49,604 bases of DNA from Erysipelotrichaceae bacterium OttesenSCG-928-M19 (GTDB taxonomy: Bacteria > Bacillota_I > Bacilli_A > JAJDGJ01), in NCBI GenBank assembly GCA_030265585.1, contig JAJDGJ010000006.1:1-49604 (forward strand), in the 5' to 3' direction. Both the position numbers and the translations under genes were made by a program. Positions 4,481 through 8,513 of the stretch are shown here, piece after piece (the first letter of the stretch is position 1; every line of letters begins with the position of its first letter). Below the pieces are notes generated by a model. It did no database searches, had not been told where the DNA came from, and saw only the letters and a list, made by a program, of their open reading frames with translations.

Positions 4481-5166
4481 ACGGCAATTAAACTAACTTT
4501 TGTAATATTTTTATTGCTTGAAATATCTTCCACAATATCAATATATGCGTATTTTCTAGGTAGTTCAATTGTATATATTGTAACATATATTTTATTATTA
4601 TCTTCAGTTAGAACCTTAAAATCAATATCTTTTATGGTAATATTATGCTCATTAAAGTATTGATAAATAAAATCTTTTGTTTCACGATGTTGATAATTAA
4701 TTTCAATTCGTCTAAGATGTGGAATTTTAATCAAACGTTTTAATAAAACAAGCACAATTAAAATAATGATAAAACCACTAATTGCTATTGTATACATACC
4801 CATACCAATTGCAATACCAAGACCGGCAACAGCCCATAATGAAGCAGCAGTAGTTAGACCAGAAACAAAATGTTTGGTTACAATTATTGTTCCAGCACCT
4901 AGAAAACCAATACCACTAATAATTTGAGCAACGAGATGACCTTGTTCATAGATAAAGATATTACTTATCTCTGGATTCTTTAAAGCCATTTGGTAAGCAT
5001 TTTGAGCAAGCTGTACTTGAACTAAGGCAATTATTGTTGCTCCAGTACAAACTAGAATATGAGTTCTTAGGCCTGCTGGACGATTTTTAAATTCACGATC
5101 AAATCCAATGACTCCAGATATGATTGTTGCCATAATTACTCTAATTATAATGTCTTGAACACTCAT
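4477..5166 (-). CDS. MgtC/SapB family membrane protein
   Basis: A 229-residue MgtC-family protein. The N-terminal half is a hydrophobic domain with the signatures GVIGFDREFKNRPAGLRTH and GIGFLGAGTI plus TTAASLWAVAGLGIAIGMG. The C-terminal half (from about residue 145) is a small soluble ACT-like domain. MgtC proteins affect magnesium homeostasis and virulence in other bacteria, partly by acting on ATP synthase. The branch here cannot be told from SapB-type transporters. AGGAGG stands at a good distance before ATG. It is transcribed alone on the minus strand. Confidence 0.85.
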   Translation of the reverse strand: MSVQDIIIRVIMATIISGVIGFDREFKNRPAGLRTHILVCTGATIIALVQVQLAQNAYQMALKNPEISNIFIYEQGHLVAQIISGIGFLGAGTIIVTKHFVSGLTTAASLWAVAGLGIAIGMGMYTIAISGFIIILIVLVLLKRLIKIPHLRRIEINYQHRETKDFIYQYFNEHNITIKDIDFKVLTEDNNKIYVTIYTIELPRKYAYIDIVEDISSNKNITKVSLIAV

Positions 5167-5297
5167 ATAATTACCTCCTTTTCATTAATTATACGCTAAA
5201 ATCAACTATTTGTCAGTGCAAATAATAAATTTTAAGTAAAAAATAGTTATCTTTATTGATAAAATATTATGATTATGATAGGATATTTAATATAAAA

Positions 5298-5367
5298 GAC
5301 ATCGCCGGATGTCAAGAAATAATAATGTACTATAGGCCTTTGCAGTACATTGTTATTTCTTTTTTTA
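5298..5367 (+). promoter_or_regulatory. Leader attenuator, candidate guanidine riboswitch (class IV-like)
   Basis: The 5' leader of the SMR pair folds into hairpin 1, GACATC-GCCG-GATGTC (5298-5313), directly abutting a long hairpin 2 (arms 5314-5331 and 5344-5361, about 18 pairs with one G-U). Hairpin 2 is followed by seven T, which makes a strong intrinsic terminator before the genes. The loops hold complementary GCC and GGC, so a kissing interaction is possible. A hairpin plus terminator hairpin with loop-loop contact upstream of guanidine exporters is what I know of the guanidine-IV (mepA) class. The class assignment is an inference; the attenuator structure is read directly. Confidence 0.55.
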
Positions 5368-5384
5368 TTTTAGGAGGTTAAGTT

Positions 5385-5717
5385 ATGGAATGGTTATTTT
5401 TAATTATGGCAGGTCTACTTGAAATTATCTGGGCTTATACATTGACACTCTCGCATAGTTTTACAGTATTACCTTATTCACTATTAACGATTTTCTTGGT
5501 TATTTTATGTTTTTATTTTTTAGAGAAGGGTATTGCTAAGCTTGGTATAGGTATCTCATATGCAACTTTCACTGCCTTTGGAACAATCGGAACTTATTTC
5601 ATTGCAATTTATCTTGAGCAAGTAACAATTAATATTTTTAGTATTATAGCAATAGTTGTCTTAATAGGCGGTATTGTTGGGCTTAAGACAATTCAAAAGA
5701 AAGGAAATGATCAATAA
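5385..5717 (+). CDS. SMR family exporter subunit 1 (probable guanidinium exporter)
   Basis: A 110-residue small multidrug resistance protein with four transmembrane helices. The essential membrane Glu lies in GLLEIIWAYT (residue 13), and helix 3 has SYATFTAFGTIGTY. The WAYT/GTIGT pattern is closer to the Gdx/Sug guanidinium subgroup than to EmrE. Such exporters work as proton-coupled antiparallel dimers, here probably as a heterodimer with the next gene. AGGAGG precedes ATG, and the stop TAA overlaps the start of the partner. The gene lies behind a terminator-type leader, so it is probably regulated by transcription attenuation. Confidence 0.88.
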   Translation: MEWLFLIMAGLLEIIWAYTLTLSHSFTVLPYSLLTIFLVILCFYFLEKGIAKLGIGISYATFTAFGTIGTYFIAIYLEQVTINIFSIIAIVVLIGGIVGLKTIQKKGNDQ

Positions 5718-6031
5718 TGGCTTGGTTTATTTTGATTATATCATCCTGTTTTGAAGTACTAGTGATGATTAATCTTGCGAAATCTAATGGTTTTAAGAAT
5801 ATTAAATATACATTACTAGCACTTGTTTTTCAAGTTATTTCAATTTTGTTATTAGGTTATACCTTGCAATATTTAAGTATTAATTTAGCTTATGCAACTT
5901 GGACTGGTTTAGGAACAATCGGAAGTGTTATTTATGGTATTATCTTTTTAAATGAAACAAGAGATTATCGAAAATTTATTTTTATGTCATTAATTATGAT
6001 AGGAATTATTGGTCTTAAATTAACAACCTGA
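5717..6031 (+). CDS. SMR family exporter subunit 2
   Basis: A 104-residue SMR protein with four helices, the conserved Glu in CFEVLVMINLAKS (residue 13) and the helix 3 motif AYATWTGLGTIGSV. Its start overlaps the stop of subunit 1 (TAATG), which fixes one-to-one translation, as in YkkCD-like paired SMR exporters. Its stop is TGA, showing that TGA is not reassigned in this host. The two subunits differ enough for fixed orientation in the membrane, so a heterodimer is likely. Substrate is inferred from the leader. Confidence 0.88.
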   Translation: MAWFILIISSCFEVLVMINLAKSNGFKNIKYTLLALVFQVISILLLGYTLQYLSINLAYATWTGLGTIGSVIYGIIFLNETRDYRKFIFMSLIMIGIIGLKLTT

Positions 6032-7419: not shown

Positions 7420-7607
7420 TTTATATCACTCCTTAGTTATATTATAACTAAAAAAAATAAAAATCACATCTTTTTTAATAATTTTAATATACTAAAGTGC
7501 TTTAATATGCTATAATTTAGAATGTATATTTGTGGACAGTTTCATTTCTTAAACATTTTATCAACTGATTACTGTGCTAGAATATTAACAATAGTGAGGT
7601 GCATATA

Positions 7608-8513
7608 ATGACAACAAACCGTAGTGTAAGATCACGAAAAAAAGATGCTAATTCCAAAACAGTTATTGATAATAAACGTGCTGCAAAGAGCAGTTTAATT
7701 AATAAAGTTAATGCTGAAAAAGAGAATGTTACTTCTTCTAGAAGTAGTGATTCCGCAAAAAGATCTTTACAAGACAAAGTTAACAGTGAAGGAAAAACAA
7801 GAGATAATCGTGATTTAAATCAAATAAAAGGTGAAGCAAAAAAGTTATCCAAAGATGACACTACTATTAATAGTAAAAACATAAAAAAAGATAATAAAGA
7901 TGATAAGAAAAAGAAGAATAAAAAACCACTAAGTAATCGTCAATCCAAATTTAGAAATTCTTTCTTTTTTAAGTTATCTAAAATTGGTCGTATACAACTA
8001 GTTATTTATTGTGTTGGTATTTTAATATTTGCAATTTTATTTGGTCGTGCTATGATGAATAAGGGTCATGTTGTCTTAGGTAGTCGTCAAGAAGCTAAGG
8101 TAGTTATTAAAAATGATGAGATAGAAAAGGTTAAGACAGCTCTAGATGCTGCCTTACCAAGTGCTGAATCAGTTGATGTTCAATATGTAGCTTATCGTTT
8201 AGTTGTTGTAATTGATATGCCTGACTCTTCAGATGCAGCTGCAGGTAAGAAAGCAAATTATGCAGCTTATCGTGAAATAAATAAAATTTTACCAATCAAA
8301 ACTTATTTTAGTTCTGAGGATACTTTAAATAATGATTTATTTATTTATTCTTCTGATGTGATTCCTAAAGATTATGAAACAAATTCAAAATATATCTTTC
8401 AAACTTATAAGAATTCTAAAATGGCAAAACCATCATCATACAATCTATTAACGCCACGCGATAAGAAATCTGCTCAAGAAGTTTTAGAGACAATGGATAA
8501 GGCAAATAGTTAA
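7608..8513 (+). CDS. Unknown single-pass membrane protein with long charged N-terminus
   Basis: A 301-residue protein. Residues 1-120 are a Lys/Asp/Ser-rich, low-complexity, probably disordered and cytoplasmic tail. One transmembrane segment (LVIYCVGILIFAILFGRAM) lies near residue 130. The C-terminal domain of about 150 residues would be outside the membrane and has no motif I recognise. The type II single-pass layout resembles cell-division or envelope-assembly bitopic proteins, but no specific family can be claimed. Start ATG 7608 follows GAGGTG; upstream GTG 7599 lies in that site. A terminator hairpin straddles its stop codon. Confidence 0.6.
   Translation: MTTNRSVRSRKKDANSKTVIDNKRAAKSSLINKVNAEKENVTSSRSSDSAKRSLQDKVNSEGKTRDNRDLNQIKGEAKKLSKDDTTINSKNIKKDNKDDKKKKNKKPLSNRQSKFRNSFFFKLSKIGRIQLVIYCVGILIFAILFGRAMMNKGHVVLGSRQEAKVVIKNDEIEKVKTALDAALPSAESVDVQYVAYRLVVVIDMPDSSDAAAGKKANYAAYREINKILPIKTYFSSEDTLNNDLFIYSSDVIPKDYETNSKYIFQTYKNSKMAKPSSYNLLTPRDKKSAQEVLETMDKANS

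Follow-up and report, generated by a model that had tools for sequence, protein, structure and literature searches.

A probable guanidine-IV riboswitch upstream of a predicted paired exporter

The closest described counterparts of the locus presented here are the riboswitches of the guanidine-IV class (mepA motif, GGAM-1). Genes named for this class in the accessible text of the discovery paper include SugE, MATE and PnuC (PMC7736828, Lenkeit et al. 2020). According to the same text, the L. lactis switch requires G66, U67 and G72, of which U67 is 97 % conserved and essential as judged from a single mutation, while G62 is 90 % conserved and less strict, the G62C change having weakened the switch (PMC7736828). 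For the C. botulinum switch, the available sections of a second study describe the pairs A29-U72 and C30-G71 as well as a requirement for G77; of two double mutants, A29G/U72C regained the kissing loop and C30G/G71C did not (PMC11611296). On the side of the transporters, an opposite bias in Lys and Arg residues has been reported in over 95 % of adjacent SMR pairs, and the entries 6wk5, 6wk8 and 6wk9 correspond to Gdx-Clo, in the part of the source at hand (PMC9574504).

The window, by which we mean the whole 49.6-kb stretch (positions 1 to 49,604) from contig JAJDGJ010000006.1 of Erysipelotrichaceae bacterium OttesenSCG-928-M19 (genome of 1.12 Mb), contains a leader that is very probably a guanidine-IV transcriptional ON switch controlling a heterodimeric guanidinium exporter (paired Gdx), both the response and the transport being predicted from the families concerned. 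A guanidine-IV switch and paired Gdx would thereby occur together in a lineage that seldom carries SMR genes.

The leader element

Two hairpins on the plus strand make up the element. The first one, P1 (5298-5313), has the form GACATC-GCCG-GATGTC with 6 bp and a GCCG loop at 5304-5307, and is supported by the sequence, the fold and the match to the covariance model R1 described below. It directly abuts the complete second hairpin (5313/5314), with no linker in between. P2 (5314-5361) comprises 18 pairs in the computed fold, and its arms, AAGAAATAATAATGTACT at 5314-5331 and AGTACATTGTTATTTCTT at 5344-5361, can be read directly from the plus strand. It doubles as the stem of an intrinsic terminator, of which the T7 tract (5360-5366, plus strand) begins with two T that still lie inside the P2 stem. 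Loop 2 (5332-5343, 12 nt, plus strand), ATAGGCCTTTGC (= AUAGGCCUUUGC), contains AGGCC, and its GGC at 5335-5337 is complementary to the GCC at 5304-5306 in loop 1, on the same strand, so that the two can form a kissing contact. An earlier note on this DNA had described exactly such an arrangement, a GCCG-loop hairpin abutting a terminator hairpin with AGGCC in its loop and followed by T7, with loops able to kiss. This description stands: the arrangement is read directly at 5298-5366, and the fold of 5280-5390 includes both hairpins at -29.5 kcal/mol, an energy that none of 200 shuffles attained (z -4.26).

The ATG at 5385 and, ahead of it, a Shine-Dalgarno-like AGGAGG (5372-5377) both lie outside the hairpins, so that control of transcription rather than of translation is expected. 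Upstream, a consensus scan gives a possible, weakly supported promoter at 5256-5284 on the plus strand (TTGATA, 17 nt, TAGGAT, with TG before the second hexamer); it has 9 of 12 consensus matches, and four such sites occur in 5150-5400 over both strands, with 2.3 expected from shuffles. On the minus strand of 5298-5313, P1 followed by TTTTATATTA also resembles a weak terminator.

The SMR gene pair and its surroundings

The two genes downstream, both on the plus strand, encode SMR subunit 1 (5385-5717, 110 aa) and SMR subunit 2 (5717-6031, 104 aa), which match the Pfam family Multi_Drug_Res with 61.1 and 69.7 bits, respectively (cut-off 23.7). The ATG of the second gene overlaps the last base of the stop codon of the first. 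Gdx-Clo matches subunit 1 with 57.6 bits and subunit 2 with 76.5 bits, and the near-identical chain 8vxu with 57.8 and 74.2 bits, whereas none of the EmrE chains reaches E 0.001 with subunit 1 and the best one obtains 27.2 bits with subunit 2. In both proteins, E13 and the Tyr of YAT align to the central Glu and the TM3 Tyr of Gdx-Clo. With loops assigned by eye, K48, K52, K101, K105 and K106 of subunit 1 are all found on the side of the N-terminus, loop 2 and the C-terminus, while K22, K27, K30, R82, R85 and K86 of subunit 2 lie on the side of loops 1 and 3, with K101 opposite. The resemblance to heterodimeric guanidinium exporters that had been pointed out in the earlier note is thus supported by a closer relationship to Gdx-Clo than to EmrE and by the opposite charge bias, guanidinium export itself being the predicted activity. 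Paired Gdx transporters of the SMR family are YkkCD-like.

In a tree of 59 rows, subunit 1 falls among the first and subunit 2 among the second subunits of pairs. This tree, which has few columns and long branches and in which the joining of the window with the pair at locus L075 is possibly false according to the tool's own warning, is used only for placing the subunits in two different paired-SMR clades. The same clades also hold the pair just mentioned (genome G618, with a GCCG-type element) and a Vagococcus pair that has a guanidine-I switch. The nearest pairs by identity, those of G547 and G532 (L044 and L048; 44 % and 41 %), were not matched by R1 up to E 1, and Rfam assigned them no guanidine family at its gathering score. 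Most of the SMR pairs examined are without a detected switch.

Scans of the class and of the phylum yielded few true SMRs. Among 394 genomes of the class, nine match PF00893 at E 0.001 and six pass the cut-off; judged by frame lengths, real SMR genes occur in only three of the 394 (G000, G030 and G346), and what remains are partial matches within longer frames. A search with subunit 1 at E 0.001 gave matches in 4 out of 80 relatives, its own genome included. The SMR pair of G030 (L004), from the same class, has no R1 match and none at the Rfam gathering score, only weak ones at E 1. Its leader (L004:1380-1490) has one hairpin of the form CAAAG-UAUAGAA-CUUUG and, apart from it, a terminator hairpin, which echo loop 2 (UAUAG..CUUUG). 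A Vagococcus locus (L009), known from one weak transporter match in the contig search, likewise gave nothing at the Rfam gathering score and nothing with R1. A Paraclostridium sugE gene reached via plasmid matches is preceded by a guanidine-I switch, which is not kin of the window element.

Within the same family, the genomes G002 and G003 have an mgtC-like gene and, next after it, a homologue of the gene at 7599-8513 of the window (50 % and 47 % identity), and at these loci (L086 and L087) the SMR, DUF4846 and flavin-reductase genes are absent between the same flanking genes. G001, of the same genus, has no match to the mgtC-like protein and is therefore uninformative on origin. The segment 5167-7598 of the window, with the riboswitch, the SMR pair and the DUF4846 and flavin-reductase genes, appears as a cassette that was either gained here or lost in kin. 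The window starts with four consecutive tRNA genes (37-395).

Covariance models and library searches

The seeds for a covariance model came from 118 Lactobacillales genomes (centre G514), 71 of which contain a PF00893 match and from which 30 loci were fetched. A first pattern for loop 2 and a looser one gave many matches that were not leaders. Seven leaders were chosen by eye as lying just before an SMR start and ending in a terminator. Their loops read ACCG and UAGGUC..(U/A)G, with one seed, L034, carrying GCCG and UAGGCC like the window; the P1 of L029 is limited to three pairs, and that of L042 is absent from the minimum-energy fold. The model R1 was built from these seven Lactobacillales SMR leaders with the window left out, and R2 from the same set minus L034, its sole GCCG seed. 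With filters off, R1 matches the window at 5298-5368 with 43.9 bits (E 1.8e-7), the runner-up in the 49.6 kb scoring 15.8 bits, and R2 finds the same element with 39.9 bits (E 6.9e-6) and nothing further up to E 1, the E-values being rough by the tool's own statement. In the 1.12-Mb genome, searched under stricter filters, R1 matches nothing but this element at E <= 0.001. With strict filters and part of the candidates scored, R1 matches were obtained in at least 22 of the 118 Lactobacillales genomes and in at least 8 of 247 genomes that comprise the window's own and those around it. The window element ranks 18th of 30 by R1 score.

The library search that the earlier note had suggested as a check gave a different outcome. 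At the gathering score, Rfam 15 finds no guanidine family in the whole window, only the four tRNAs, and at E 10 the leader returns 20 matches without any guanidine family, which are chance matches (plastid, miRNA and others). Rfam 15 also reports nothing for seven loci with strong relatives (37.5-90 bits by R1; three are seeds), nothing for 20 loci from Lactobacillales, six of them seed loci, and no guanidine family for ten further loci, one of which supplied the seventh seed. As a positive control, it does detect guanidine-I in two Paraclostridium leaders and in a Vagococcus genome. Most likely, Rfam 15 lacks a guanidine-IV model. Since it misses strong relatives at the gathering score (e.g., L026, L054 and L075), the null for the window is uninformative and should not be taken as absence of a guanidine-IV element. 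The lack of a model hit, one of the results that the earlier note had named as refuting it, thus did occur with the library but does not count against the proposal, and a match was obtained with R1 and R2.

Covariation and loop letters

The alignment A2 has 30 rows, corresponding to the 22 and 8 R1 matches with the window row replacing the copy from its own genome (L078); seven of the 29 other rows are R1 seeds. Including the kissing contact, 98.4 % of 500 cells can pair, compared with a mean of 75.8 % after shuffling and at most 45.3 % when the alignment is slid, and 14 of the 17 pairs show changes on both sides over the 30 rows. These values are biased towards the model for the stems, which belonged to the R1 structure, while the kissing contact was unpaired in R1. 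Over the 30 rows, each of the six P1 pairs has changes on both sides, and the CCG of its loop never varies; in P2 eight inner pairs were counted, of which seven changed on both sides, and pairing is kept in 98.8 % of the cells. For the kissing helix, all 90 cells can pair: two of its pairs are invariant and the third is A-U in 24 rows, G-C in five and G-U in one, five rows having changed on both sides. The covariation among relatives whose lack was to count against the earlier proposal is therefore present and extends to the loop-loop contact.

The third kissing pair of the window is G-C, which is shared by four of the 29 other elements (L059, L061, L075 and L077). L059 and L061 are near-identical, so that the number of independent G-C events is below five. 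L059, L061 and L075 precede SMR genes and L077 a Pyridox_ox_2 gene.

The letters A5334, G5335, G5336, C5338 and G5342 fall on the columns 55, 56, 57, 59 and 63 of A2, which are invariant in 30 of 30 rows. In both L. lactis and C. botulinum, as given in the accessible parts of the two reports cited above, the second G follows five bases after the U, and column 63 is likewise five after column 58. Mapped by this published spacing, G5336 (column 57) and G5342 (column 63) represent the conserved G66 and G72. The position of U67 is occupied in the window by C5337, and pairing is retained via G5304 in loop 1. In C. botulinum this combination corresponds to A29G/U72C, with which the kissing loop was regained; retained pairing may nevertheless not be enough, in view of the failure of C30G/G71C, at the neighbouring pair, to restore it. 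G is found in 18 of 30 rows at column 52 and in 3 of 30 at column 53, where the window has U and A, and which of the two columns corresponds to G62 depends on the loop length.

Genes downstream of related elements

The 29 other elements precede genes for SMR (16), MATE (6), PnuC (5), a pyridoxamine-oxidase-like protein (1) and a B3/4 protein (1), the first three kinds being among the published guanidine-IV genes. By coordinates, 16 of the 22 Lactobacillales R1 matches lie directly before a PF00893 gene. The MATE genes were recognized by Pfam at L068 and L076 and by N-terminal likeness to L068 at L069, L070, L072 and L073; Pfam also identified PnuC at L079-L083, and the Pyridox_ox_2 and B3/4 genes are those at L077 and L074. 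The B3/4-domain gene at L074 might presumably be linked to the canavanyl-tRNA editing protein. Within the window's class, five of the seven other elements (L079, L080, L081, L082 and L083) stand before PnuC-family genes. At L049 (G531:C27:162361-162639), the SMR gene after a GCCG-type element, counted among the 16 PF00893 genes, carries an in-frame TAG.

Alternative readings

The leader could in principle be a plain intrinsic terminator or attenuator without a sensor, P1 being a chance hairpin, and the terminator hairpin does give most of the fold energy (-18.3 kcal/mol for 5314-5360, -7.0 for P1 and -28.2 for the whole element). A chance hairpin, however, would not be expected to change on both sides in each of its pairs around an invariant CCG, nor would the leader be expected to match a model from other genomes with 43.9 bits, and this reading is exceedingly improbable. 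A switch from one of the guanidine classes I to III would be in line with the guanidine-I switch of the paired Vagococcus SMR genes, given that the class varies within the transporter clade, but the window has no such family at the gathering score and the leader none among its 20 matches at E 10, although guanidine-I does match on other loci; the probability of this option is practically negligible.

A guanidine-IV-like fold in which the G-C kissing pair goes with another ligand or with a much weaker response, as in the orphan variant Gd4v, is very unlikely too. Changes of conserved letters separate Gd4v from guanidine-IV (PMC9788692, in the part available), and loop 2 of the window deviates where L. 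lactis has U67 and, by alignment, lacks a G in the place of G62. On the other hand, the counterpart of L. lactis G72 is still a G in the window. According to the same partial text (PMC9788692), D1 is not G in Gd4v; by elimination, D1 would be G72, which is G5342 in the window. Transaminase-linked Gd4v RNAs are described there as always having an extra terminator hairpin (PMC9788692), whereas loop 2 of the window has no insertion compared with the other elements, its fold giving only a three-pair closure with G-U, as in five of the seven seeds. Moreover, no Gd4v RNA is placed upstream of COG2076 (SMR) genes in the available text (PMC9788692), which is where the window element and three of the four other GCCG/GGC elements are found. 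It is also very unlikely that the GCCG/GGC subtype (the window and 4 of the 29 others) forms a functionally distinct branch of guanidine-IV, in which the third kissing pair determines an affinity or a range of ligands of its own.

Proposed mechanism

With the guanidine-IV switch as the preferred reading, P2 would zip fully into the terminator when no ligand is present, as in the computed fold, and transcription would stop at the T tract. By analogy to the published mechanism of the class, bound guanidine would favour kissing between the GCC of loop 1 and the GGC of loop 2 at a stage when transcription has covered no more than the inner part of P2. Once P2 is complete, no linker separates it from P1, so that kissing and a full terminator would be mutually exclusive, and the result would be read-through into both SMR genes. 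As members of their family, the subunits are predicted to insert with opposite topology, to pair in an antiparallel manner and to export guanidinium in exchange for protons. The switch would then probably turn on a two-subunit pump upon build-up of toxic guanidine.

Comparison with known systems

By structure, sequence, covariation and context the leader is an ordinary member of the guanidine-IV class, from which a response to guanidine can be predicted. It shares with the class the two hairpins, the second of which is the terminator, the loop-loop contact, the invariant loop letters at the published spacing and SMR genes downstream. It differs in that the third kissing pair is G-C and not A-U, in that the less conserved G62 position is without G by alignment, in the lack of a linker between P1 and the complete P2, and in driving a gene pair. 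The guanidine-IV type put forward in the earlier note is borne out by the R1 and R2 matches, the covariation of the kissing pair, the spacing of the loop letters and the gene context; the divergent or new class that it also considered is not needed, since the main difference, the G-C kissing pair, recurs in 4 of the 29 other elements. With Gd4v the leader has in common the overall design of two hairpins and a pseudoknot, but its terminator is without an inserted hairpin and an SMR gene lies downstream. The exporter resembles paired Gdx of the SMR family in Glu13 and the TM3 Tyr of both subunits, in the opposite K/R bias and in being closer to Gdx-Clo than to EmrE; subunit 1 differs from Gdx-Clo by a Phe instead of Trp in YAxW, a Phe that is also found in other first subunits (the L075 pair). 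The single feature of mild interest at the locus is the natural G-C form of the third kissing pair: the window presents a naturally compensated version of a loop-loop pair at which one mutation is sufficient to abolish the switch of L. lactis, and it offers a clean way to tell if guanidine sensing depends on base pairing or on the letters themselves.
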